Positions 1-63,424 of a stretch of DNA of 64,000 nucleotides are shown in pieces; position 1 is the first letter of the stretch; the number at the start of each line of letters is the position of its first letter. Below the pieces are notes generated by a model. That model was not told the DNA's origin, made no database searches, and was given only the letters and a program-made list of their open reading frames with translations. This DNA comes from Patiria pectinifera. Its lineage: Eukaryota; Echinodermata; Asteroidea; Valvatida; Asterinidae. A program made the translations under genes and the position numbers. The DNA lies in assembly GCA_029964075.1 (NCBI GenBank), contig CM057149.1, positions 29,588,197 to 29,652,196 on the forward strand, written 5' to 3'.

Positions 1-386
1 TAAAGTTGGGGCATTCCCAACTGTGGCGACACATAGAGCTGGGCATATAGAACTATATACTGTCGAGCACCTTTATAACAAAGTCCTGGGGACTTTATTA
101 ATCACATTGTTATATCAGGTACCTTGTATTAACAGTAATGGAAAACAAAGAAAGCCAAAGACTTGGGACCTAAAATTCATGTAATGTATTAACAGTGCTC
201 GTCTTATCAGGGTTCGTGACCGTATTCCTTTCCTTATCCGTGTCACAGTTTCTGTTGTTCTTCTGCTTCTGCAGAGTCTGATACATTAAAGTAAGTTTTG
301 CAATCGTTAAAATACGGGGGAAATGCATTTATTTTCGCTCATTGATGAACGCTTTTGCTTTTATCTTTTGACTTTAAGGATACATC
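1..386 (+). promoter_or_regulatory. 5' flank and 5'UTR intron of bicupin copy 1
   Basis: This flank is repeated upstream of an empty site at 5057-6601. A donor gtaagt at 291-296 and an acceptor ag at 377-378 define an 88-bp intron just before the ATG at 387. Copy 4 has the same layout (donor 13455, acceptor ending 13543, 89 bp), so the intron is probably a real 5'UTR intron. I did not identify a TATA box or a start site. Confidence 0.5.
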
Positions 387-1163
387 ATGAAAGTCAGCCA
401 TTCTGCCGATCTACCCATAATCTCTCTTCCAAATAGCGCCCTCACTGGCGTCCAACTCACCAATGACAAGGACTATGCCAAGTTCACGTCATATGAAGCG
501 CGCATCCCGGCCGAGACTACCGTTGCGCTGAGATCCCCAGACAGCGAGCAAAGCGTCCACATCTATTACTGCATTAGCGGGAAGGGGAAATGCGTCGAGG
601 CTGGCAGTCAAAACCAAGGGGAGGTTTGCCCTGACACTGTGGTGGCGCTCTCTTCGGACTTGACCTATGAGTTGACAGTGTCAGCAGAGGGCGGCATGCG
701 TCTGTTCGTAGTCTACTACCCAGACGCCCAGGTGGTCTACCGATCGCTTGCATTGGTGCGAAGTCTGTCAGAGGTTGTTGGCAATGATAGAGATATCGAC
801 TGGGGAGGCGGCCACAGCCGGCGATATCTCATCAAACAAGATGGCTTCCCTCTGGGTATTCACAACGTCTGGGTTTATCCGAAGACATCTGTCCGATTGA
901 GCTATATAAATCACATCGAGGACGTGTACTACATAGCAGGAAAAACAACCTTACAGTGGCAGGATACCAGTGGCGAGTGGGTTCAAGCGACTACGAAAAC
1001 GGATGGCGAGAACGGCACCAACTACTTAATGAATATGCATGATTGTCACGTTTTACAGAACCACGACAAAGATGCTTACTGTATTTGCATCTTTGATCCC
1101 GTTCTGAAGGGAAATGAAAATCACAAGTTTACGGAGGATGGGTTCTCTGGTTATGAAGCCTGA
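387..1163 (+). CDS. EctC-like bicupin protein, copy 1
   Basis: 258 aa, one coding exon, two cupin folds in tandem. Residues about 26-118 form an N-terminal cupin that lacks the metal-binding His/Glu set. Residues about 137-258 resemble bacterial ectoine synthase (EctC, about 130 aa). Seen in the C half: W139, R145/R146, H176-x-E178 in NHIEDVYYIAG, Y213 in GTNYLMN, H218-D-x-H221, C234-x-F236 and E244-x-H246. By recalled EctC numbering, E178, Y213 and H221 match the iron ligands Glu57, Tyr85 and His93, and the others match pocket residues. A metal-dependent cupin enzyme is therefore plausible, but the substrate is unknown and no ectA/ectB partner is present. No signal peptide or membrane segment is evident, so it is probably cytosolic. 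The start is supported by the identical position in copy 4 and by the 5'UTR intron ending at 378. A TTAA-flanked element begins 24 bp after the stop. Confidence 0.8.
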   Translation: MKVSHSADLPIISLPNSALTGVQLTNDKDYAKFTSYEARIPAETTVALRSPDSEQSVHIYYCISGKGKCVEAGSQNQGEVCPDTVVALSSDLTYELTVSAEGGMRLFVVYYPDAQVVYRSLALVRSLSEVVGNDRDIDWGGGHSRRYLIKQDGFPLGIHNVWVYPKTSVRLSYINHIEDVYYIAGKTTLQWQDTSGEWVQATTKTDGENGTNYLMNMHDCHVLQNHDKDAYCICIFDPVLKGNENHKFTEDGFSGYEA

Positions 1164-1186
1164 AGGGGTGGACAGTAAATCTTTAA

Positions 1187-1716
1187 AAGGAATGTACAAC
1201 AATTGATTTTGCTGCAATTTTCAGTCAATAAATGGATTTGGATGATTAGTATAACATAGCAAATATTGTTAAAATGACTTGTTTGACATTTTGGGCTCGT
1301 AGATGTTGGAAAAACTAAGAAAATCAATCATATTCTTGAAATCTGATACCCCGACCCCCTTAAGATGAAACGGAGCAATTTATAGACTTTTGGGATTTGT
1401 AAGGTCAGAGAATCAGTCTAGCAGGCTTGTACCCCTAGCCCTTCACAGGTGTGAAATAAATTGTAAAAAAAACCGTAAACGTGGAATACCTAATTATGAA
1501 AATGCAGGAGCAGTTTCTGAACAAAAAGCCAGTTTTCTCCAACGCTGGTCGGCCGACCAGCATTTGAAAAATCCATTTTTCTTGAACATGCCAGCACACC
1601 AGGAGCCACGATTTTACAGGATGCTTTAGACTATCATTCCCTATCAATCCAGTAACGTTTACCATGATAATTTGATCATTTCGTTTTGTGATGTTTGCAA
1701 ATGTTGTATCTTCCCT
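1187..1716 (-). mobile_element. TTAA-flanked inverted-repeat element (MITE), copy A
   Basis: A 530-bp element lies between TTAA at 1183-1186 and TTAA at 1717-1720. The ends are inverted copies (AAGGAATGTACAAC and GTTGTATCTTCCCT). The same element occurs in the opposite orientation at 35013-35535. A TTAA target site is typical of piggyBac- or Kolobok-type transposons. No transposase is present, so it is non-autonomous. Confidence 0.65.
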
Positions 1717-1720
1717 TTAA

Positions 1721-2758
1721 ATTCAAAAACAAACAAATAGCGTGTCACTGACAATCATTTCGTTAACCATAAATCTGTAAACGATAAGTCAGCTTATACA
1801 TTGTATAATTATTCAAATGAAAGGACATAGGAACAATGGTAATTGCCCGGAAACGAACCTACTGACTTGATGAGAAAAACCTTGCTTAAAGAGAAGAAGT
1901 GACTGGTACTAAAATACCCTGTGAAACAAAGTTGATCGGAGGAAAACTATCACTAAAAGCGGTTTTAATATATGTTTTCTTTAATTAAACGATAACCGTT
2001 AATTACATGAACTATTGTAACATAATCACTTTCAGATGTGGTGGTATACAGTACTAAGCAGTAAGAATATTCCCAACCAGAATAAAGGAAAGAGACCAAT
2101 AACGCCAAGATTGCCCATTACAGCTCGATTTTCTGTTAACGGTAGTTTTCCCCTACTTAACTAAAACGTGGCCCACCTCCAAAAGAGGCAACATTTTGGA
2201 TTTTTTTCTCTTGTGATGTAGCACTTGGGTTGGCTGTCTTTATGCGAAAAAGAAAGGAAAAATTATCTGAATCATTTTTTTTGGGGGGGGGGGGTGGGCG
2301 AGCCCCCTACTTTTTGAAGTCATGCCCCGCTCACAAAAGGGTCAGAAAAAAATGGCACCAAGACTGGTTTTGAACTTCCTGATGTATCCATTAGTGATCC
2401 TGAGATTTTCAAAGAATGTACCCGAAAATGCATATGGGCTCCCGCAAGCCCACTGACTAATAGTGCAGTGCAAACATACTTTCGGTACTTGTGGTTTTCA
2501 TTAAGTTTCGAGAAGAAGCATCTTAATAACATTTGAAATGGCACAAAACTCTGACAACAGTAGGCTTCAAGAAATCATATAGTCTGCTGTTGCTCAGATT
2601 TAATACAGGCGAAATTGCCCACAATCTGCATAGACCAGTTCACTATAAATTCAAATTCATACACGATACACATGCGCATAAATAAACCTGAAGGCAAAAT
2701 TAAAGCGAAATCGGCCCATTGAAAATGTACTGGAGTCCAAACAGTTTTGTCATTTTAC
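1721..2758. other. Intergenic, no gene recognised
   Basis: AT-rich DNA between bicupin copy 1 and the orphan 3' fragment. It holds a poly-G run near 2282-2294. The open frames are short and resemble no family I know. Confidence 0.5.
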
Positions 2759-2935
2759 GCCACTACGATATCAGACGGCGAGAACGGCACCAATTACCTC
2801 ATGAATATTCATGACTGTCACGTGGTCAAAGTCCATGACGAAGATGCCTTTTGCATCTGTATCTTTAATCCAGTTCTGACAGATGTCGAGAATCACCAAC
2901 AAACAGAAGGCGGTAACTATGGATACAAGTCTTGA
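2759..2935 (+). pseudogene. Orphan 3' fragment of a bicupin gene
   Basis: From about 2759 the sequence matches the last ~56 codons of copy 4, including the GTNYLMN motif, HD-C-H, CICIF and the stop codon. Nothing homologous to the first ~200 codons precedes it. The reading frame is open, but the fragment lacks the N-cupin and the HIE metal motif, so it cannot encode the fold. Its G-x-E-x-H motif is replaced by D-V-E-N-H. It is best read as a relic of a partly deleted or partly duplicated copy. Confidence 0.75.
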
Positions 2936-2989
2936 AACTGGATCAGGAACCAACAACATCAGTAGCCAGCGGAATACAATAATTAGCCT

Positions 2990-3235
2990 TTAATAGACCA
3001 AGGCCCTACTATAACGATAGCCAAAGGTAACATCTTTTTCTCTACGACGATTTGGTGTTCAAACAGAGCAATTTTCATCACCTCTTTAATCCTACACAGA
3101 GCCAGGATTTTACCTTGTAAGGTCTGTGGAGAAATCCTCCCGGTCATCTCACTAGGAACTCGGCGCGAAGTGAATGTGTGCCCATTCAACTGTGAATTTC
3201 AATCTTAAAAACCGTCAAAGTAAAATAAAAGTTCT
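2990..3235 (+). repeat. Duplicated 3' flank of the bicupin gene
   Basis: This stretch resembles the 3' flank of copy 4 (about 14340-14530). Its right part (about 3170-3235) recurs at 4140-4213, and diverged versions lie at about 10370-10460 and 14860-14945. It marks the end of an old duplication unit. Confidence 0.6.
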
Positions 3236-3709
3236 TTTATGGTTAGATATCAGAGTGTTCTGACAGAAATCCTAACTATTTATAGGTCTGAATGTGAAAT
3301 TTGATAATTTTGTATTATTATATATCGATTTCATAATAATTATTTCATATTTGATAATTCAAATTTCAAGACTTTCGTCACAAGCATGCGGGAAATCTAG
3401 CAGGAAAAGGGTCAACTGTACTCCTTCTATTTTCCTTTATTCAAGTCTCATTTTTCTTTGGCTGATAATGAATGTATCAAGTAGGCCCCTATATACAGAA
3501 TTAAACCATTTTTAGAAAATGTAATCACAACCATGCATGGTTTGTTTCTCTCATGTTTGTCGTCGCTAGAAAGCATGGACGCAGAAAGCACATTTCAATA
3601 CTTGGGAATTTATACGATTTTGTAAAATTCTGTTCCATCCGTCATTAATTTTTTATATAGTCTGCGAAAGATGGGTAGTGATAAAAAATGAGAGTTGATA
3701 ATTATCATC

Positions 3710-4609
3710 ACCGTCACCACGAAGTGACACTTACATCGAAAAATCGATATTTGCGATTCCGATTTTTTCCCTAATCTGTGATTAATTACACATAATCTAT
3801 CACCTCAAGGAGTTACTATACACAGAGTTAATTGGTTTTGTCAATATATTAATGAACATTAATTAACCTTTGTAACTTAATGGATCAAAATCGGAAAATG
3901 CGTTTTCACGAAGTGTACTATACTATTCTTTCGCGTGTAAACTGCCTGCACACTACGCGTCAAAAACGGGTTTTGCGTTTTCACGAAGTACCACAAAATG
4001 TCACGTGTTATGTGCGACTCACCTCTGGCATTTCACGAAGTAGCGCTAACCTATTAGCTAATACACATGGTTAGCGTCACTTCGTGAAAACTCGAACACA
4101 GAGTAGGTCATTGTCGAGGATGTGTCGGCGCCGTCGAACGACACATCCAAATTCAATGTGTGCCCATTCAACTGTGAATTTCAATCTTAAAAACCGTCAA
4201 AGTAAAATAAAAGTTTTCACGAAGTACCACAAAATGTCACTTGTTAATGCGCGACTCATTTCTGGCATTTCACGAAGTAGCGCTAACCGTTTAGCTAATA
4301 CACATGGTTAGCGTCACTTCGTGAAAACTCGAACACAGAGTTATCGGATTTTTGAAATTACACGAAATGTCAAGACAAGTGTACTTATGGTCAATTAGTT
4401 TGATAACTCATTATTGTTCAATAAAAAAAATCATACATTACTGACGTGTCATTCAAGATCCAAGCTTTCAGAAAATGCAACAAAATATGAATGTTGAGGC
4501 CAAAACGATATTCAGATCACCGTTTCAAAACATCGTCAACTTAAATCGCTTGTATCTTGAAACACACATTTTCCACTTTGCGGGGGTTAAGTCACTTCGT
4601 GGTGACGGT
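3710..4609. mobile_element. Nested inverted-repeat element with cacgaagt ends
   Basis: The ends are a perfect 19-bp inverted pair (ACCGTCACCACGAAGTGAC at 3710-3728 and its complement at 4591-4609). Inside are two direct copies (about 3978-4102 and 4214-4340) of a ~125-bp unit, which itself begins ttttcacgaagt and ends acttcgtgaaaa. A piece of the bicupin 3' flank lies between them. No clear target-site duplication and no transposase were seen. Confidence 0.6.
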
Positions 4610-4652
4610 AAGAGCATGTTTTAAAAACTCAGTATCTGTAGTAATGTTTAGT

Positions 4653-6601
4653 CACGAGGTTAAACTTTGTACCCGTTCATGAGGACTGTTCACTTTTTCA
4701 ATAGTAAAAGATAAGGAAAGGGTAGGAATGAATTTAACGCGGTCATAATACTGCATGATACACGCCCCATACATTCAGCAGGTCTGCGTTACTTTTGAAT
4801 GACTTTTAATGCAAGAGTTTTGAGGTCATTAAGGTGAGTTGAACACTTTCATTTCAATTAGAGGCTGAAGGATCGGAGCTCGGCTACTAATAAACATGCG
4901 TCATGGACGTCTGACTCGCATATACAGTGGAAATTTCAGTCATGAAAGACGAGCTCTGAGTTGTAACATTTGGTGCATAAATTGAACTTCTAACTTGCCT
5001 CGTTCTTATGTTCCGTTCCACTGTTACATCCAAGTATAGCAACTGTGCGACCCAACTAAAGTTGGGGCATTCCCAACTGTGGCAACACATAGAGTTGGGC
5101 ATACAGAACTATATACTGTCGAGCACCTTTATAACAAGGTCCTGGGGACTTTATTAATCACATCGTTATATCAGGTACCTTGTATTAACAATAATGGAAA
5201 ACAAAGAAAGCCAAAGACTTGGGACCTAAAATTCATGTAATGTATTGTAACCGGGGAGAGTGGGATTTATTAGTTTTAAAATGTGGCACTCGCCTTACAA
5301 CCGAGTGGTTCCACTAAAAAATAATTTGGGTGGAGCGAAGTTTTCTGTTTGTCTCAATAATATCAAATGTTTTATTTACAGCACAAATATGAGACAATAT
5401 ATATACAAATTATTAGGTATTTACAAAAGAATTACAGTATATATATAAACTTTGGTTATATCAAACGACACTTTGTTGGGTATATAAAAACGACAGTCAA
5501 AAAGGGAAAATAGGCTAATGAAGTTGCTCGAAGGATAGTATCTGAAATGCATAAAAACAATAAATGACTAATGAATTATGGGAATAACTTCCATATCCAC
5601 ATACATTATTAACGATATTTAATTCAAAGAAATTTGGGAAAAACTGGTTTCCTTATTTGAAAATCAAAACACTTTTTTATACATGCATCAGTAAAGGAAC
5701 AAACTGTGGCGTAAAATGACTGTTGCCCAAACAGAAGAGTTATTTAAATGGCAATAAACAAAGCATACAAAAGACCAGAATGTTGCATAAATGATGGCAT
5801 AAAAAGATTCAGGCATAAAAAGGTTTTAGGCATAAAATGGTTTTAGGCATAAAAAGTGAAATATCAGACAAGGGATTCACTCACCACTTGGGATGGTCTA
5901 CGTTCATGCCTTCTCCGTGTCCGATGTCAAAATCGAAGATCAGCAGTTAAAATAGACTAAAATATGTTACTGCTATCAGGGAGCCTCACTCAAAATTTGC
6001 AGATACAAGTGGAGAGTGTAAGAGCTCGCAAAATGATGGTTTGAACGCAACAAGGTGTTGGATCGAAATCAAAGTTATTTCGCAGCTAGCCTTACAAGAA
6101 AACTAACCGAAACGCCCGGAATGTCAGCTATTTCTCTTAAACAAAGCGCGGTGGAATGCAAAACTCGCCTGTTCGCTACGCCCATTGCATAGTTTAAAAA
6201 GTAGTGGGCAAAATTCTAGGTGGCGCGCGCTGTAAAACAAAAGTTTAGTTGGCCGCGAGAGGGCGCTAGGCAAAAAGCATGATCGCAATGGCTGCTCACA
6301 TGTAAAATGACACAAACACGAAGTTAAGAAGTTATGAAATGAATGCTGGAGTAAGGAACCTGTCGGGTAAAAGTAAGTACTGAAACCCGACCTGGTTACA
6401 GTATTAACAGTGCTCTTCTTGTCAGGGTTCGTGACCGTATTCCTTTCCTTAACCGTGTCACAGTTTCTTTCTGTTGCTCTTCTGCTTCTGCAGAGTCTGA
6501 TACATTAATTAAAGTAAGTTTTGCAATCGTTAAAATACGGGGGAAATGCATTTATTTTCACTCATTGGTGAACGCTTTTGCTTTTATCTTTTGACTTTCA
6601 G
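4653..6601 (+). repeat. Orphan bicupin 5' flank without coding exon
   Basis: 4653-5056 matches 12791-13145 upstream of copy 4. 5057-5245 matches 1-189 without an indel, and 6401-6601 matches 186-378. The copy runs up to the 3' splice site (cag at 6599-6601) and then diverges, so no bicupin exon follows. A 1155-bp element (5246-6400) interrupts it. Confidence 0.75.
5246..6400. mobile_element. DNA transposon-like insertion with 4-bp GTAT duplication
   Basis: Comparison with the empty site at 181-200 defines the insertion exactly: GTAT at 5242-5245 and 6401-6404 flanks an element that starts TGTAACC and ends GGTTACA. Near the right end is an inverted pair gtcggg/cccgac. The 1155 bp holds no recognisable transposase, so it is non-autonomous. 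The superfamily is not assigned. Confidence 0.7.
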
Positions 6602-7614
6602 GACAGGTTTTGACTGTGGCTACTAGATTTTTTGTCTTAAATTTTGTATATGGTTTAATGTACCAGATTGGTTTTTTTTTAACTGAAGTCCTTTAAAATG
6701 TGCCTACACCGCTGCGCTTTCACTTTCGTCCTCGGTATTTGCATAGCCGTTCTCGAGGCTTTGCTGCGCATGCATGGAGGGTTTTAAATTGTGAACAAAA
6801 ATTGTGTTTTTTTAAGATAAAATCTGCAGTTGAGTACAAATTCACAGAGGTCAATTCTCTAAACTGTGTGTTTCCTTGTTGATACTACAAGTCATGTCTA
6901 TGACAGCTATAGTCAACACGCAATGTATATGTACATACCGTAACCATTATCAGCAACATCTTTACATGTCTCTAATTTTCTACAACAAAACCTCACCAAC
7001 CAGTATAAGTGCCTCATTGGTCAGGACATAAATAGCATGACTGCGGTATGAAACACTGAAAACAAGGCAAATCTAAACTGAATTAGATCCAAACAAAATG
7101 AGCCACATTATTCCCAGTCGAGTCGAGTCGGGCAAAAACGAAGGCCTCACTGGGGACTAATTTGCAAGGGGTACATTCATCATGCGGACCGCATTTTTTT
7201 TTTTTCCAAAGAGAGTTACTTAATGGGGCAATTAGTGGGTTTTCAATTATAAACAAAACTTATATTTTGCCTTTCCAAAATTAAGAACAGGGGCACCGGT
7301 GGGGCCGCGGGAGGGCTCGCAAGGAACCCCGGATTGGCGGGGGGGGGGGGGTCCCCCTGACGACGCCCCTCACCCTAAGCTAGACTACCTGCATGTATAT
7401 TGACAAAATATCGCTTAGTACAGAAATTCATATTTCAGCTGGCCAATTTTATAAGCTATATTCTGAGAAGTGAACTTTGATCCAGATCGGTTCGTCACAT
7501 GATGGTACAAAGTTCGTCAACAGTATCATCAGGTCAGCATAAGTCTGTGTTAACATTCGGTCATCTAGTATGAAGTATACAGCTTTATGTATAGACTATA
7601 CACGCATGTTAAAG
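6602..7614. other. Intergenic, no gene recognised
   Basis: Sequence between the orphan 5' flank and copy 3. It includes a G-rich stretch at about 7288-7352 with a long G run and no credible coding region. A splice donor gtgagt at 7615-7620 may end a 5'UTR exon of copy 3. Confidence 0.4.
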
Positions 7615-7871
7615 GTGAGTTATTTCTTCACAGTTTTATTTCAGTGCTGACGGCGGAACGAACACCGGGACACTCGAACCGTTCGATGCAATTCCATGGT
7701 CTTTGAACTTGTATTTAATAAAATAATTTTGGAATCATGAAATTATGAGGAAGTAGCCTATATTAGCCATGCAAAGGTTATGTATTAAGGCAATATTTCA
7801 TTCCTTTCAATCCGAAGAACGAACATATAAACTCGTCAATGTTTTTTTGTGCCTGCAGCTTAACTTTCAAC

Positions 7872-8654
7872 ATGTTGATCACGCATTCTGTCGAGCTCCC
7901 CGAAATGGCTCTTCCCAACAGCGCCCTCAGCGGTGTTCAGCTAACCAGTGAGAAAGATTACAGCGATTTCACAAGTTTTGAAGCGCGAGTCCCTGCCAAG
8001 AGTACCGTTTGTCTAAGATCGCCGGACGGCCAGAGTAGCCTGCACTTTTATTACTGCATCAGTGGAAGGGGGAGGTGTCAGGCGACTGCGGATGGAGGCC
8101 AGCGTGACGTCTACCCGGACACTGTGGTGGCGCTGTCATCTGATGTGACCTATGAGCTGACGGTGTCAGAAGAGGGCGCCATGCGGGTCTTCGTAGTCTA
8201 CTATCCAGACGTCGAGTTGGCCTACCGCTCGCTGGCAGTGGTGCGAAGCCTGTCAGAGATAGACGGCAGCGAAAGAGACGTCGACTGGGGGAACGGGCAC
8301 AGCTGGCAGTACCTGCTGCAACCAGATGGCTTTCCCCTGGGTATTCACAAGACGAGATTGAACCCAATGACGTCATCTAAACTGGCCCATCAGCACCACA
8401 TAGAGAGCGTGTACTACACGTCAGGGAGTGTGACCTACAAATGGCAGGATACCAGCGGCGCTTGGGTAAACCAGAGCTCGAGAATTGATACAGAGAATGG
8501 AACCAACTTTCTTCTGAATGAGCACGACAGCCATATACTGGAGAATCATGAGAACATTTCTGACTGTATCTGCATCTTGTACCCTGTCCTCTCGGGAAAG
8601 GAAAAACAGATCCTGACCGTGGATGGATACACCGGTTTTGAGGCCACAAATTAA
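7872..8654 (+). CDS. EctC-like bicupin protein, diverged copy 3
   Basis: 260 aa, collinear with copies 1 and 4. I place the start at 7872 (MLITHS, aligned to MKVSHS). An upstream in-frame ATG at 7839 lies before a good acceptor (ctgcag, ending 7858) of a likely 5'UTR intron 7615-7858. The N-cupin is well kept. In the EctC-like half the metal motif HHIES and HD-S-H are kept. Relative to copies 1 and 4, R145-R146 has become W-Q, Y213 is F, F236 is L and H246 is Q. By EctC knowledge this removes one iron ligand (Tyr) and several pocket residues, so the original chemistry is probably lost or altered. The frame is intact, which argues against a simple pseudogene. The last ~25 bp of the coding end are repeated at 8970. 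Confidence 0.78.
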   Translation: MLITHSVELPEMALPNSALSGVQLTSEKDYSDFTSFEARVPAKSTVCLRSPDGQSSLHFYYCISGRGRCQATADGGQRDVYPDTVVALSSDVTYELTVSEEGAMRVFVVYYPDVELAYRSLAVVRSLSEIDGSERDVDWGNGHSWQYLLQPDGFPLGIHKTRLNPMTSSKLAHQHHIESVYYTSGSVTYKWQDTSGAWVNQSSRIDTENGTNFLLNEHDSHILENHENISDCICILYPVLSGKEKQILTVDGYTGFEATN

Positions 8655-9200
8655 CATGTCCCACAGAGTGCGATAAAGTGCAGTGCTTCACAATGTTGAG
8701 TTGATTTTTTCTTTTTATTCTAGGTGGCTCCAAATTTATGTCAAAACTAAATTGCGTCTTGATAGTACAATTCTTTCCCCCAAATGCTCTGATCTTGTTA
8801 TAATAAAGGCTAAAACATCGGTGTTTTTCGGCTTCTTGTAATTTTTTTTCTCTATACGGTCTAGACGGAGACCGAATAGCGCAGAACTCGGGAACATTAT
8901 TGATGGACATTTCTGTTGAAGGGAAAGTTTCTAAGTGGCTTGTAAACTTGCCTATTATAATTATTATATAAGGATGGATGCACCGGTTTTGAGGCCACAA
9001 ATTAACTGTCACATAAAGTGCGAAAAAGGGCGTTTGCTTCACTATATTTCAAGTTGATTTTTTTTTAAATACTTTGTACGTGGTTCCAAAGTTTTGTTGG
9101 TTCCAAATTTACGTCAAAATAAAACTTATGTCCGGATAGTTCAATTCTTTCCGAAAGATACTATGATCTGGTCATTATAAAAGTTCATTTTTTCGAAATA
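8640..9200 (+). repeat. Local duplication of the copy 3 3' end
   Basis: The final codons, stop and 3' flank of copy 3 (8630-8800) recur, diverged, at 8970-9190. The part at 8780-8930 has two further relatives at about 15880-16025 and 16150-16210. This shows repeated local duplication of one 3' flank. Confidence 0.6.
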
Positions 9201-11128
9201 CCGCGGTAGCTATATTAAGGTAGTGTCCATGTCGTATATAAGCAAATCCTTATATGGAGATTGGCGCACGCGTTGCGCGTAATGCACGATGTCGAGCAGA
9301 ACGCAGCTGTGCCGGTGTGTAGTGTAAATTTAGCACTACGAAGATACTGACTCACTGGTAGTATTGCGCATGCCTACGTACGTACAAGCACGTTTGTTTA
9401 TGGTGAAAATCGAGGATTTTCTTTTGTTCCTCTTCCCGTTTCCTTTGTTTTGTACTTTTTCGCAACAGCTCTCATTGGTTTTGTACACGTTTTCCAACCG
9501 AGGAGTCCTCGATTCGGTTTCTGCCCTCGACTCGTCGATGATGTTGCACGTGTGTGTCCTCGATTTACACCATAAACAAACGTGTGTGCATTGTGAACGT
9601 TCAAACAATAAAACGGTGACTAAAAGGCCCTGCCTTTCAAAGGAATCTAAATTTCATGTGACACTGGAAAAGTGTTTAAGACCAGCCAGCCGGTCTTTAT
9701 CAACCGTTTAAAACCGGACACGTGACGGTCTCTCAACCAATAGGAATGGGTTAACTGTCTTGCGTATTTGTGAATAATGGTTACTACATTTGCCCAATTT
9801 TCAAACCAATAATGATGATTTTTAAAGCTATAATTTAAATCTGTCCAGGCTTTCATAGAATCATGACTGTAAAGCAACCTTTTGACGAACGTCTGATACA
9901 TCTTTGCAGTATGCAAATTTACAGAAAAGTGTCCAAAGCTGTTGATTGGTCCAAACATGCATGGCAGCCTCCACGGTGTAATTGATGTGTAAGGATCTGA
10001 CGAGTTTCCCGTCAGTATAGAACTCTCTCCAAACGTCGATTTCAGAACTGAAAGAGGCACACAAAACGGTAATTTGCGCTTCAGCATTTTTTTTTTAAAG
10101 AATCCCTTTTGAAAGCTGGAATACCTGAGGTTTTAACGTAAAAGTGTTTTTACATGTACCTTTAAAGTTTGTATGGAACAAAAGAAATGGGTATGGTATT
10201 AGGACTCCCTTGTGCAAATAATAAAGTATACATAATTATACTATAGACCTTGCTATCGGGCGCTCGACAACCCCTATAGCCTAGGCCTAAAACATTCTGC
10301 CGAATGCTAAATATTTTTTATTTTCTTTTTCATTTTTACTCAATCTAACCCCTAGGGTGGGGCGTGGCACTCGAACGACAAACCCATTGTTTGTCCATTC
10401 ATCACTATCGATTTTTTAACATTAAAAACGGTCATTATGATACAAGATAAAAGTCCTTTTAACTTGTGTCTGAATGTGATACTTGATTTTTTTTTTAATA
10501 CAATGTAAGGAAGTGTCTTTTAGGAGGCACCGTATATTGGCACATCGCCCAACTTCTTTTACGAATGTACAGGTCAATGGTTACATTACACGTGTACTTA
10601 AACCGCTCGGCCCGCCATGCGCCTATGCAGTGCGCGCGAAAATCATCCATTCCAGTCTACACACGTACACCAACGTGTGAGTATCGTATAGTCGATGTAA
10701 CCAACCATTTTACTTATGAAGACCGGACTGTGCAATTGCTGTTCATTCTCATTTCATTGTGTCACTATTACTGCCACTACTGGTCGAAGTTTTAGTTTAT
10801 AGTATGTTACTAAAAATGAGTGGTTTTGAGGTGAATTGGCAGTGAGATTCACGTGCAAATCTAATGTATATCTCGACTACTGTTTCATGTTGGGTTTATC
10901 ATGGCGACTGTTGTATGTTGTACACTTGCGTTTCCATTACAGACACACTCTCGGGAAAAATGGTCCGGATAACATTGTTAACTTATTTCTTATGATGGGA
11001 CTGCGGTTTGGCCTAAGTCAATTGAGCGTGATCGGCTGACTGATAAGGTTTACATACAAAACCCCAAGTCAACGGGGTTTTTGTATAGAAAGCACCCGGA
11101 CCACATTTTGCGAGAGTGTGTCCGTAAT
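9201..11128. other. Intergenic, mostly old duplicated flank DNA
   Basis: About 9850-10080 matches 16365-16690. About 10095-10145 matches 14660-14715. About 10370-10460 matches 14860-14945. Open frames here are short and do not resemble known proteins. No RNA gene was recognised. Confidence 0.5.
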
Positions 11129-12181
11129 GGCTTGAAGCCTGCCGGTAATGCTGAGCCTGCATACTGCCAAAGTTACCAGTGGCATCCCTACATTTTCTCC
11201 TGCAAATAGGACCCATTTTTGGACCCTAAATTTATCAAATCTGCTCTGAGATAATAGCCCAAAAGCTAGGAAGATGATCCTCGGCTATATCCGCACGATT
11301 CCACCGATTTTTAAACGAGACGGTCTCGTTTTTTACAAAAAATTGTGGGGGCACTTTTTATGCAAATTAACGACTCGGACGCGTAGAAATTTTTGAAACC
11401 CTAATCAAAATTATTGCGCCCGCTGTCGGTCTTATTGCGCCATTCTGATATATCTTCTGTCTGGCAACCCCCCCCCCCTCATCCAGCCACTCCCCCCCCC
11501 CCTACCACCACGACCACACCAAAAAAATAATAGTAATTAAATACTGTTAAAAATGTGCTCTTTTATTGAGAAATTCATGAAGCATATTGAAACTGATTGG
11601 ATTTTTCCAAAGTGTCTTTCCCATTTGCAAAAGTTCTTTTTAAAAGCCCATCAACCGGCTTGAAGCCTGCCGGTAATGCTGAGCCTGCATACTGCCAAAG
11701 TTACCAGTGGCATCCCTACATTTTCTCCTGCAAATAGGACCCATTTTTGGACCCTAAATTTATCAAATCTGCTCTGAGATAATAGCCCAAAAGCTAGGAA
11801 GATGATCCTCGGCTATATCCGCACGATTCCACCGATTTTTAAACGAGACGGTCTCGTTTTTTACAAAAAATTGTGGGGGCACTTTTTATGCAAATTAACG
11901 ACTCGGACGCGTAGAAATTTTTGAAACCCTAATCAAAATTATTGCGCCCGCTGTCGGTCTTATTGCGCCATTCTGATATATCTTCTGTCTGGCAACCCCC
12001 CCCCCCTCATCCAGCCACTCCCCCCCCCCTACCACCACGACCACACCAAAAAAATAATAGTAATTAAATACTGTTAAAAATGTGCTCTTTTATTGAGAAA
12101 TTCATGAAGCATATTGAAACTGATTGGATTTTTCCAAAGTGTCTTTCCCATTTGCAAAAGTTCTTTTTAAAAGCCCATCAA
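11129..12181 (+). repeat. Near-perfect 526-bp tandem duplication
   Basis: Copy A is 11129-11654 and copy B is 11657-12181, separated by two bases. They appear identical by eye except for one C in the second of two poly-C runs (11 versus 10). The unit codes for nothing recognisable. It is either a very recent duplication or an assembly artefact. Confidence 0.85.
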
Positions 12182-13454
12182 GTCGATCTTCGCCTCAAAT
12201 GCTGTACATATATTAGGTGTAATCGGGAAAGCGGAGTCCACACAGTCGTACACTGACTTGGCGTTCGGGAAACTGTAACTTTATAGAGTTCTTTAAAACG
12301 TTGAGTATTTGGAACTTTTAAACTATATTAGGCCCTAGACTTCTTAAAAACCTTGCACTTGAAATGAAGAACTTAAGTTGTAGCAGTTGGAATTTACTAT
12401 TTGGAACTTTACTTTATAAACTTAGACTTGCAGCTTGTAGAAATTGTATCTTATTCATTATAGTTCAACCCTAGTTTTGTGAGCCTTTTATGTTGATGTC
12501 ATAAACAAGAAATATTGTAAAGTCGTTGTGAAAGAACAGTATAACAAGTTCATGAGAACAAGCCGGACTCCTGTTTTGGTTGCCTTGGCGTCCTTATTTG
12601 AGCGGACCCTCGTAATGGTGTACAGCTACAACAATATACATGTGTAATTATTACATGTATATTACATGCATGGTGATTCTGTTCCATGCATCTGTCACTG
12701 TCTGCGAATTATACTGAAAATGACCAATGCCGCGTGCTGATCAAAAGCGTATTTTAAAAACTAAACAACTGTAATTTTAATAAGTATAAACACGAGGTTA
12801 AACTTTGTACCCGTTCGTGTGGACAATGCACTTGGGATAAAGAAAGTGCAGAAACGAATTCGACATATTCATGAAACTGCATGATGTATATACGCACTAC
12901 AATTTCAACAGGTCTGCGTTACTTTTGGTTGACTTTTAAGGCAAGAGTTTTGTATGGTTTCGAAGTCATCAAGACGAGTCGGATTTTTGAAGACTTTCAT
13001 TTCAATTAGAGGCTGAACGAGTTTCATGGACGTCTAACTCATATATACCTATACAGTGAACATTTTCTGTCATGAGAGAAGTTAAAGAGTCGTAACTTTG
13101 TTCCATTTCGTTCCACTATTACATCCCCAAAATAGCAACGTACGACCAGACTATAGGGGTGCATACCTATATGTTTTCCAATACTGATGTTCCCCAATAC
13201 CGATTTCCCCTGAAATCCCTACCAATATAACCCTAACCCTAACTCTAAGGATTTGGGGGAACATCGGTAGTGGGGAACATCGGTATTGGGGAGCATCGGG
13301 AAGATCCCAACTATAGTAGGGGCATTTCCCCAACTGTGGTAACACAGTCATACATACTTCATATACATGTACCTTTGTATTGTATTGTATTGTTTTATAA
13401 ATGGTGACGGATGGGGACGGGGAACCAATTAGAGGGAGCCTTTCTTTTGGTAAA
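12182..13454 (+). promoter_or_regulatory. 5' flank of bicupin copy 4
   Basis: 12791-13145 matches 4653-5056, the flank of the orphan 5' region. It ends in a tandem set of short words resembling gggaacatcggtattg (about 13185-13300). The last part holds a probable 5'UTR exon ending at the donor gtaaga, 13455. No promoter element could be assigned. Confidence 0.4.
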
Positions 13455-13551
13455 GTAAGAATTGCAGTAATTAAAAACAGGGGAAATGCATTTTTATTTT
13501 CCTCATTTATGAAACCTTTTTGCTTTCATCTTACATCTTTCAGGTTACATC

Positions 13552-14328
13552 ATGAAAGTCAGCTATGCTGCCGATCTACCCATAATAACTCTACCAAATA
13601 GCGCCCTCACCGGCGTCCAACTCACCAATGACAAGGACTATGCCAAGTTCACGTCATATGAAGCGCGCATCCCGGCCGAGACTACCGTTGCGCTGAGATC
13701 CCCAGACAGCGAGCAAAGCGTCCACATCTATTACTGCATTAGCGGGAAGGGGAAATGCGTCGAGGCTGGCAGTCAAAACCAACGGGAAGTTTTCCCTGAC
13801 ACTGTGGTGGCGCTCTCTTCGGACGTCACCTATGAGTTGACAGTGTCAGCAGAGGGCGGCATGCGTCTGTTCGTAGTCTACTATCCAGACGCCCAGGTGG
13901 TCTACCGATCGCTTGCAGTGGTGCGAAGTCTGTCAGAGGTGGTTGGGACTGACAGGGATATCGACTGGGGAAAAGGCCACAGCCGGCGATATCTCATCAA
14001 ACAAGATGGCTTCCCTCTGGGTATTCACAACACCTGGGTGTATCCGAAGACATGTTCCCGGATGTGCTATATGAATCACATCGAGGGTGCGTACTACATA
14101 GCAGGGAAAGTAACCTACGAGTGGCAGGATACCAGTGGGGATTGGGTTCACGCCACTACGAAAACGGATGGCGCGAACGGCACCAATTACCTCATGAATA
14201 TGCATGACTGTCACGTGGTCAAAGTCTATGACGAAGAAGCCTTGTGTATCTGTATCTTTGATCCTGTTCTGACAGGGGATGAGATTCACCATCTATCAGA
14301 AGGCGGTTTCTCTGGATACAAATCATAG
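13552..14328 (+). CDS. EctC-like bicupin protein, copy 4
   Basis: 258 aa, same architecture and length as copy 1: a degenerate N-cupin (about 26-118) and an EctC-like C-cupin (about 137-258). The C-cupin has W139, R145/R146, H176-x-E178, Y213, H221, C234-x-F236 and E244-x-H246. A clean acceptor (tctttcag, ending 13543) precedes the ATG by 8 bases. The nucleotide sequence for residues about 20-140 is almost identical to copy 1, while residues about 160-258 differ at many sites. This points to gene conversion of the first half or faster change in the catalytic half. The enzyme role is inferred only; the substrate is unknown. A lone annotation of ectoine synthase would overstate what the sequence shows. 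Confidence 0.8.
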   Translation: MKVSYAADLPIITLPNSALTGVQLTNDKDYAKFTSYEARIPAETTVALRSPDSEQSVHIYYCISGKGKCVEAGSQNQREVFPDTVVALSSDVTYELTVSAEGGMRLFVVYYPDAQVVYRSLAVVRSLSEVVGTDRDIDWGKGHSRRYLIKQDGFPLGIHNTWVYPKTCSRMCYMNHIEGAYYIAGKVTYEWQDTSGDWVHATTKTDGANGTNYLMNMHDCHVVKVYDEEALCICIFDPVLTGDEIHHLSEGGFSGYKS

Positions 14329-39258: not shown

Positions 39259-39480
39259 CCCAACTATCGCATCGGTCCCAACTATAGTTGGGCCTGTCCC
39301 AACTAGTATAGTTGGGCCTGTCCCAACTGTAGTTCTACAGTTGGGCTGGCCCAACTATAGTTGGGCCTGTCCCAACTATAGTTGGGACGGTCCCAACTGT
39401 AAGTTCCACTGTTGGGCTTGCCCATCTATAGTTGGGCCACTCCGATCTCTTTATTTTGCGGTGTCCCAACTATAGTTTAC
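39259..39480. repeat. Palindromic minisatellite of cccaactatagttggg
   Basis: About eight variants of the palindrome CCCAACTATAGTTGGG, joined by short linkers such as cctgt. Two weaker copies follow at about 39565-39620. Related words occur just upstream of bicupin copies at 1-50, 5050-5105 and 13305-13345. Confidence 0.7.
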
Positions 39481-39489
39481 ATCGATGTA

Positions 39490-40481
39490 CAACCATAAAA
39501 CGTTCCCTACAGCTCTGATTCACGTCTGACTTTACTGGGGACCACTGAAATTAGTTATTGATGGGGCGAATGTATAGTTGAGCCACTCCAATCTTTTTAT
39601 TTTGCGGTCCCAACTATAGTGTACATTGTTGTACGATTATGATAAAACATTCCCTACAACTCTAATACACATCTGACTTTACTTGGGACCAATGAAATTA
39701 TCCATGGGTGGGGGCCATCTGTAGTCATCTGGGGGCCACGTGCACTGATCTCTATTCAGGATCCACGGTACAGGAAACAGCCGTCGCATTTGCAACTCGC
39801 GCCCTCGCTCGACAAGCAATTTGCATAAACGCGACGTCACAGCTTGAGGTCATCTCTTGTCACATTCAAAATGGTTGCCATCACCAGACGTTTCACGAGT
39901 GCATATGGGCATAATTGAACATCATTACACCCAAGCATCCCAGAAGTGATAGATGGGACATCGTAGAATACAACCATATGTAAGAAATTCCCTGCAAATT
40001 TTATGAAAACGTCCTCAGTAGTGCGCGGACCACGGTGTGTGGCTAGAGGTTAAGCGCAGCATACCGCGGCCACACTAGTGGGGCTAGGATGGTGGGGGAG
40101 AGATTGAATGCTTGTTTAAATACTTGATGATCTATTTGGTTGTGTACATTCTGACATTAGCAATTAAGGCCAAGCTCGGGCAAGGACCATTATTAGTCGA
40201 CTAGTGGTTGATTTGTGAGAACCATTCAGTTGACAGTCTGGTTCCAACAGCCAAAGATACTGACGTTGAATACTACATGTATTACTATTAGGTCAGGGAA
40301 CCAGATGGTTTAATGCCATGCTGTAACGAAAGCAGTTGAAAATCACATTACGGCTGCCATAACACGTAACAATAGCTACTCCGATTTCAATAATATTTTT
40401 TGATAACGAGACATACCGGAAAATACCAAAATGGAATACCAACAAAATTCTCCCTTTAAAAGAAAAAAAGTGGCTAGAGCT
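39490..40481. other. Region upstream of ZMYND10 exons, first exon not found
   Basis: A somewhat CpG-rich stretch (about 39770-39850) could be a promoter. I searched by eye for the expected first ZMYND10 exon (about 30 residues) and did not find it. The 8-bp duplication of a hAT-like element begins at 40474. Confidence 0.35.
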
Positions 40482-50976: not shown

Positions 50977-51888
50977 TCAGGGTCCTCTGTCATCCCGGAA
51001 CTCTTGAGGCGGTGGGATCTGACACAACACTTCCCTCCCGTTTCGCTGTACGCCCCTACGATGGTGCCTCATGTGTTCCATTGTCTCATTATGAAGACTA
51101 GGCCAATAATATCTCTCCTTGACCAGCCGTAGAATTCTCCCGTATCCTAGCTTCTCCATGCTTCCATGTAGACTGTTGAATACTTCCTCTCTCAACTGAC
51201 GAGGAAACACTGCCAGGTACCTACATGTAGCCTTCCTGCCGCCCTTCTTGTGCATCAGAAGTCCTCCCTTCACCTCTAGTCGACGCCATACTCCTAGCAA
51301 CTTCTGCACCACTCTGGTTTCTTGGGACATTTGCCTCCTTGTCATCAGGGGGCTTGCCGTCTTGAGCTCAACAACCCGCCTGATTGCGGGATCTTTCAGC
51401 TGGGCTTCCCTGAGGCTTATCCTTTCGGAACTCATACCTCCCTGAGAGCTGGCCTGTGTCGCCTCATCAGGGGTGCTTGCGTATGTTTCTGGCGCTGGCT
51501 GGGGGGTGATGGGCTTAGGGACTTTCTGCACTGGCTGCGGGTTGGGGTTTTTCGTTACTGGCCGATGTGGGATGGGGACTTCTGGAGTTGGCTGATCTGG
51601 GGGACGCTGATTCACCTTAACATCTGACAGGGCGCACTCCAGACTCTGTATGTAGCCTCTCTGTCTCATCTGTTCGCCAATCACCTGCCGCATCATCTCC
51701 TTGAGTGCGTTTATCTGCCAAAATTGCTGCAGAATGACCTCCTGCATACTAGACTGGTGCTGCAGGAGTCTCAGCATCTCAGACTGTGGCTGCACATCAG
51801 GGACTTCAAGGTTGACAAGGTTGCAGGTTTCGGCAGGTACTGGGTCGAACCCACAGAGCTGGAGTGGAGTCATCACATCCACCATCAT
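50977..51888 (-). pseudogene. Degenerate pol remnant with integrase zinc-finger region
   Basis: 303 codons. Residues about 155-275 look like the Gypsy linker and integrase N-terminal zinc domain: LREAQLKDPAIRRVVELK, then SLHGSMEKLGYGRILRLVKE and RYYWPSLHNETMEHMRHH. The usual second His is Lys (MEKLG in place of a GHLG-type motif) and the final Cys pair is gone, so the zinc fold is broken. Residues 1-150 are proline/glutamine-rich and unassigned. No catalytic integrase core follows. Confidence 0.7.
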
Positions 51889-52108
51889 GTACTTGTCCGA
51901 TCCACCAATATAACGACACTGTGTTGGTTTATAGACTCTATTACTTGACTAATCTAAACTGACCACCAATGACAGAAGGAAACAAACCTTTGAAAAAATG
52001 CCTGTCGTCCCTATCAAAACAATTCCTGGCTAAATTTTACTAAAAAATATATTCCCTACCCGGATTCTCCACCAAAAGAATTAAAAAAAACACCAAAAAG
52101 AAAAAAAA

Positions 52109-63059: not shown

Positions 63060-63196
63060 ATTAACCCTCTTTTTTTGGCATTCGTGGATGAATGAGCTGT
63101 ACATGGCGTGTGTAAAACACATCTCTCCACAAGTAAGAGAAACTTGGCAAAGTTTTTTTCAGCTTTTGTTTTGAAAACAGCAATGTTGTAGTCCAT

Positions 63197-63424
63197 CACC
63201 AGTCCAGTCACAAGTAAATCACAAGTCCAGTCACAAATAAATCACAAGTCCAGTCGCAAGTAAATCACAAGTCCAGTCACAAGTAAATCACAAGTCCAGT
63301 CACAAGTAAATCACAAGTCCAGTCACAAGTAAATCACAAGTCTAGTCACAAATAAATCACAAGTCCAGTCACAAGTACATTACAAGTCCAGTCACAGGTA
63401 AATCACAAGTCCAGTCACAAGTAA
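63197..63424 (+). repeat. 23-bp minisatellite
   Basis: About ten units of tccagtcacaagtaaatcac plus three bases, with single-base variants (g for a, t for c). Confidence 0.85.

Follow-up and report, generated by a model that had tools for sequence, protein, structure and literature searches.

A tandem family of two-barrel cupin genes in a sea star whose EctC-type halves group with bacterial orphan EctC proteins

Bacterial ectoine synthase, EctC (PF06339; structures 5bxx/5by5 and 5onm/5onn/5ono), is described as a head-to-tail dimer (PMC4795551). EctC-type proteins encoded outside ectoine operons, the orphans, are described as having an unclear function (PMC5924519, PMC6344544), and in some of them a Trp is shifted by two residues (PMC6344544). 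EctC-like genes of deuterostomes are already in print: Harding et al. 2016, known here through citing papers, reported ectC-related sequences in Branchiostoma floridae and Saccoglossus kowalevskii (PMC5924519, PMC5796728). PF06339 is also listed among the domains of the corals Seriatopora and Favites (PMC11639872). Here we describe an array of genes in the sea star Patiria pectinifera, likewise a deuterostome, which encode two cupin barrels in a row, the second of them EctC-like. It lies in a 64-kb stretch (hereafter the window; C21:29588197-29652196 of a 613.5-Mb assembly in 1020 contigs). No description of a two-barrel EctC was found in a literature search that was not aimed at bicupins and was thin on subscription papers.

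The window contains three intact open reading frames (ORFs; Table 1), and in each of them two consecutive barrels are joined in one uninterrupted frame, as the first-pass annotation of this DNA had claimed. The protein of gene 2 is 59% and that of gene 3 85% identical to the protein of gene 1. In a profile search the three proteins reached 86.8, 78.5 and 91.9 bits (genes 1, 2 and 3, respectively) against Pfam Ectoine_synth, whose gathering score is 27, which upholds the assignment of the C-half to the EctC type, and the E-values of the domain searches exclude chance as the source of the relation. The C-half is predicted to share the EctC fold, and EctC ranks first when its structure is matched alone. 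With the full bicupin model, EctC is absent from the 50 matches listed, which are filled by two-barrel proteins; two cupin barrels in succession correspond to the germin-like bicupin fold. Other bicupins (DUF861/ureidoglycine aminohydrolase 1sef, 1sfn and 4e2q; BacB 3h7y) share the fold at 12-16% identity, with no function implied. Alignment revealed that gene 3 keeps S144, R146, H159, T161, Y173, H176, E178, Y213, H221, C234, F236, E244 and H246. These include counterparts of the EctC iron ligands Glu-57, Tyr-84/85 and His-92/93, and of EctC Ser-23, Arg-25, Thr-40, Tyr-52, His-55, Cys, Phe-106/107, Glu-115 and His-117. The putative iron triad E178/Y213/H221 is present in genes 1 and 3 and complete in 7/9 intact genes of the genome, the exceptions being gene 2 and its twin in a second cluster (cluster B, below).

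To place the C-half within the family, prokaryotic relatives were divided by the motif W-G-x-G-x-S (W, F or Y allowed at the first position) and by a neighbouring EctB gene, counted at 40% identity or more to one query. Among the best 80 of 576 relatives kept from a genome scan, EctB was present beside all 73 proteins lacking the motif and beside none of the seven carrying it. Over 137 loci (122 distinct prokaryotic proteins; most loci from later searches had only about 1.5 kb of flank), 88 proteins had EctB without the motif, 32 the motif without EctB, two neither and none both; an aminotransferase with 31% identity that lies some 6 kb from motif locus L150 was not counted as EctB. The motif is found in 8/9 intact animal genes, and the divergent paralogue on contig C7 has F-G-N-G-N-S. 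The animal proteins have neither of two ect-operon EctC traits, Trp-21 two residues before Ser-23 and a G-x-Y-P tail; in alignment the substrate-mobile Trp is displaced by three residues, and all the tails lack Y-P, closing with FSGY, YSGY, FSSY, FSGF or YTGF and then 0-4 further residues. A crude G-x-Y-P tail pattern was matched by 89/90 non-motif proteins and by 1/32 motif proteins (L028, by chance); the tails of the orphans likewise lack Y-P and often have S-x-Y. In a tree of the nine animal C-halves and 41 of the best 80 relatives, the seven W-G-N-G-x-S proteins were placed with the animals by a branch (96/99) that separated them from the other 34. A second tree, in which 24 of the 88 canonical proteins were combined with the nine animal, the 32 motif and the two remaining ones, agreed, with the canonical proteins apart at 97/83. 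On these unrooted trees the animal C-halves appear to group with the W-G-x-G-x-S bacterial orphans and not with ect-operon EctC, a placement that makes another substrate, as suggested in the first-pass annotation, likely. The orphans differ from the animal proteins in having a single barrel of about 124-135 aa.

The N-half is predicted with confidence as a barrel (about residues 34-112) in the bicupin model, which was made from three sequences. It is probably derived from EctC, with the metal site lost. In profile-to-profile comparison it aligned in register with both kinds of EctC (E 8.3e-7 for the orphans, 2.3e-6 for the canonical proteins), and all three iron-ligand positions are replaced (H58, V86 and Y94, the last being H94 in the C7 paralogue). 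Searched alone against Ectoine_synth, N-halves gave E 4.6e-5 (C7 paralogue) and 0.0026-0.039 (window genes), all below the cut-off. A2M_BRD, AraC_binding and Cupin_2 were also considered as its family and rejected, all being below the Pfam cut-off. Given the EctC dimer, the N-half may stand in for one subunit. No counterpart of the N-half turned up in three prokaryote groups (1,165 genomes), where matches to the animal profile (3/386 genomes in the phylum of G004, 37/385 in the class of G006 and 96/394 in the class of G003) never start before residue 104 of 258. Two phage records matched, over residues 123-246 and 134-246 only, and among viral contigs the animal profile A1 yielded 62 pattern matches and no relative. 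A few loci of the genome scan also seemed to enter the N-half; the frame of one of them, L057 (residues 71-246), is an EctB gene, a stop and then EctC. For nine Rhizobium plasmid records with seemingly 80% coverage or more, the extension looks spurious, the one opened being a single-cupin gene of 129 codons.

Local amplification, also claimed from the window, extends beyond it. A Pfam Ectoine_synth search of the genome identified 11 places (the window remnant at 2756-2938 not among them), and nine members are intact: four in cluster A (three inside the window plus one upstream of it), four in cluster B, about 285 kb off, and one on C7. Cluster B also holds one frameshifted copy and one remnant. 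A search with the N-half only found 10 places, each part of known bicupin copies. Long stretches of clusters A and B, also outside genes, are 91-99% identical in the parts compared and lie at offsets of about 285-296 kb; the duplicated stretch (C21:29.580-29.625 Mb on the window side, 29.865-29.917 Mb on the other; L091, L089, L090, L162, L163 and L154) includes the bicupin cluster and the DCPS gene, whose second copy is 93% alike. Comparison of 3 kb at C21:29.855 Mb with 10 kb at 30.138 Mb, the one test made for a whole tandem duplication, revealed no copy. These data fit a segmental duplication as well as an allele left uncollapsed in the assembly, and if cluster B is an allele of A, five distinct intact genes remain.

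By simple counting on seven pairs of animal genes, dN/dS was below one throughout: 0.21-0.52 for whole genes, 0.08-0.41 for the C-half and 0.30-0.94 for the N-half, with few changes behind the high values. Among window genes 1 and 3 and gene A0, dS was 0.03-0.07 in the N-half and 0.15-0.60 in the C-half in all three pairings (genes 1 vs 3: 0.07 for 387-743 vs 13552-13908, and 0.50 for 744-1160 vs 13909-14325), as if gene conversion had been confined to the 5' (N-half) region. The contrast was less or none in other pairs (gene 1 and B1: 0.042 in the N-half, 0.036 in the C-half), and dS between genes 2 and 3 was saturated in the C-half.

We consider it slightly better than an even chance that these genes encode an iron-dependent cyclodehydratase of the orphan subfamily joined to a partner barrel that is catalytically dead, with a substrate outside ectoine synthesis favoured. 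The C-barrel would act on a small substrate derived from an amino acid, closing a ring with loss of water at a Glu/Tyr/His iron site. The N-barrel, probably a second EctC-derived cupin without iron ligands, would most likely be a built-in dead partner in place of the other subunit of dimeric bacterial EctC, and local amplification would have produced copies with diverging C-halves. Because the C-barrel is kin to the W-G-x-G-x-S orphans, its substrate is probably not N-gamma-acetyl-diaminobutyrate, and ectoine would not be made from scratch. The EctC of Halomonas elongata also has a side reaction with glutamine. The reported absence of ectA and ectB agrees with our searches of the animal genome, in which no EctA candidate and only two weak generic EctB matches, far below the cut-off, were detected, although genes split into many short exons could escape. 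A bacterial origin through ancient transfer is plausible. A fuller scenario is tentative: an orphan EctC-type enzyme would have been acquired by the animal lineage and fused to a metal-less EctC barrel, its C-half diversifying by tandem duplication while the N-half was homogenised by gene conversion, and the product would make a novel cyclic amino-acid-derived metabolite.

Several observations weigh against the cyclodehydratase reading. Whether E178, Y213 and H221 converge was assessed from the alignment and not from coordinates; gene 1 has V161 at the position of EctC Thr-40. The full EctC residue set reported for all three genes stands in genes 1 and 3, but not in gene 2, which has Q146, H173, F213 (losing the Tyr ligand), L236 and Q246. 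For the N-half, A2M_BRD outranks Ectoine_synth in two of the three window genes, both below the cut-off; EctC appears in a PDB comparison only at E 1.3, behind an unrelated match at 0.23; and hhalign found no relation between the N-half and the animal C-half (E 0.061). The lead of orphans over canonical EctC in hhalign of the animal C-half is small (E 2e-33 and 1e-30), both trees are unrooted with a long animal branch (1.26-1.29), and among the best 80 of 576 relatives the first rank is an orphan (L001) and ranks 2-7 are canonical. At the Asn-38 position, 8/9 animal genes have His, like 85/90 non-motif proteins and so like most canonical EctCs sampled; Thr, found in 17/19 scorable motif proteins, occurs among the animal genes only in the C7 paralogue. 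Among the plasmid relatives listed, most carry the annotation ectoine synthase, and the orphan EctC of Pseudomonas syringae is reported to have given ectoine in an ectC mutant of Halomonas elongata, its authors calling the dataset not yet conclusive (PMC5924519). Finally, 7/7 tested bacterial motif orphans pass the NCBIfam ectoine synthase model PRK13290 (131.6-175.8 bits; cut-off 128), which genes 1-3 (95.1, 79.1 and 96 bits) and the C7 paralogue (105.6 bits) do not reach. Since the orphans pass and all four animal proteins fail, the cut-off shows divergence, not function, and it was dropped as an argument against ectoine synthase. This control slightly lowered our confidence in the cyclodehydratase reading, and slightly raised that in the alternative of a true ectoine synthase.

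That alternative, an enzyme using N-gamma-acetyl-diaminobutyrate from food or symbionts in an osmolyte role, is unlikely but the best of the remaining explanations. It does not require EctA or EctB, in alignment gene 3 retains most residues that contact the substrate as well as the iron ligands, and both the solitary P. syringae protein (PMC5924519) and the scores of the orphans above the ectoine synthase cut-off fit it. However, the animal C-halves fall with proteins encoded away from ectoine operons, the substrate-mobile Trp is shifted, and the residue replaced by V in gene 1 is one whose Ala variant is reported to have 12% activity in bacterial EctC (PMC4795551); the shortfall of the animal proteins (79-106 bits against 128) speaks for divergence only. 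We hold it improbable that both barrels are pseudoenzymes with binding or structural roles: the N-barrel lacks all three ligands, Tyr is missing from the triad of gene 2 and H176 is replaced by Q in the C7 paralogue, but the full triad in seven of the nine intact genes and the dN/dS values below one argue otherwise. Marginally less probable still is hydrolysis of dietary cyclic amidines (ectoine or related compounds) for detoxification or nutrition. H. elongata EctC is reported to hydrolyse homoectoine, and several diverging copies could suit a dietary enzyme, but the equilibrium for ectoine is given as almost fully on the ring side (PMC6344544). Bacterial contamination or an assembly artefact, for which nothing speaks beyond the bacterial kin of the domain, is very unlikely, as the first-pass annotation had argued, because acceptor-like sites lie ahead of each start codon, the window contains a DCPS gene split into at least three pieces, and of 49 assembly matches to Wnt, an animal marker, several are on the window's own 40-Mb contig. 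The window also encodes a BTB-domain protein; a search of the assembly for COX1, as a marker of the phylum, gave no match.

The neighbourhoods of 16 bacterial motif loci were inspected (L001, L008, L011, L023, L028, L041, L064, L146-L152, L167 and L168). In 5/16 (L064, L041, L147, L148 and L152) an adenylating enzyme, a carrier protein and an acyl-CoA-dehydrogenase-like gene were found. L011 has the adenylating enzyme and the dehydrogenase-like gene, with a 92-aa ORF not recognised as a carrier; L028 has the dehydrogenase-like gene and a TrpA-like gene; and nonribosomal peptide synthetase or polyketide synthase genes adjoin L001, L146 and L168. None of these gene types was seen at L008, L023, L149, L150, L151 and L167, judged partly from ORF starts only. 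The L064 dehydrogenase is nearest to the prolyl-carrier dehydrogenases PigA and RedW, below their cut-offs, and no support for an orphan EctC as cyclase in prolyl-carrier pathways was found in our literature search. These neighbourhoods suggest, without proof, that part of the orphan group performs ring chemistry in specialised metabolism. As a separate observation, tryptophan-enzyme homologues occur with the acyl-CoA-dehydrogenase-like gene near W-G-x-G genes in Aliiroseovarius (L147), Streptomyces (L148 and L152), Kibdelosporangium (L064) and Pseudonocardiales (L028): the TrpD family at L147 and L064; TrpA, PRAI and IGPS at L148 and L152; and TrpA at L028. Four of these five loci also have the adenylating enzyme and carrier protein, and the arrangement looks like an uncharacterised pathway.

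Table 1. Positions of the bicupin genes and associated features in the window.
Feature	Position	Strand	Remarks
Putative 3' splice site before gene 1	377-378	+	AAG before the ATG; suggested by sequence
Bicupin gene 1	387-1163	+	258 aa; N-barrel about 387-743, EctC-like C-barrel about 744-1160
C-terminal remnant of a further copy	2756-2938	+	About 55-59 residues, 67% and 71% identity to genes 1 and 3 (tblastn)
Putative 3' splice site before gene 2	7857-7858	+	Downstream of the ATG of the longer ORF (7839); suggested by sequence
Bicupin gene 2	7872-8654	+	Likely start 7872 (260 aa); ORF as listed 7839-8654 (271 aa); diverged active site
Short repeat of the gene 2 3' end	8973-9002	+	10 codons, 90% identity; protein match E 1.5, repeat visible in DNA
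Putative 3' splice site before gene 3	13542-13543	+	CAG; suggested by sequence
Bicupin gene 3	13552-14328	+	258 aa; N-half 13552-13908, C-half 13909-14325; most complete EctC-type site of the three

Acceptor-like AG sites, read by eye, lie 8-24 bases upstream of the ATG in 9/9 intact genes, gene 1 and its twin in cluster B having the weaker AAG. They are consistent with the 5'-UTR introns of the first-pass annotation, to the extent that splicing can be read by eye, and each bicupin gene would then have an intron in its 5'-UTR and its whole coding sequence in a single exon. Because the acceptor-like AG before gene 2 falls between the listed start and the second ATG, the latter is the more likely start. 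Elsewhere in the window there are a 23-bp tandem repeat of ten copies with 92% matches (63195-63424), a long minus-strand ORF with an integrase zinc-binding domain, probably retroelement-derived (50980-51948), and a tandem-repeat cluster with units like CCCAACTATAGTTGGG (39275-39751).

In this sample, the W-G-x-G motif splits EctCs encoded beside ectB from those without it. A two-barrel animal family with several copies at dN/dS below one would offer a eukaryotic system in which the function of orphan EctC could be approached by knock-down and metabolite profiling.

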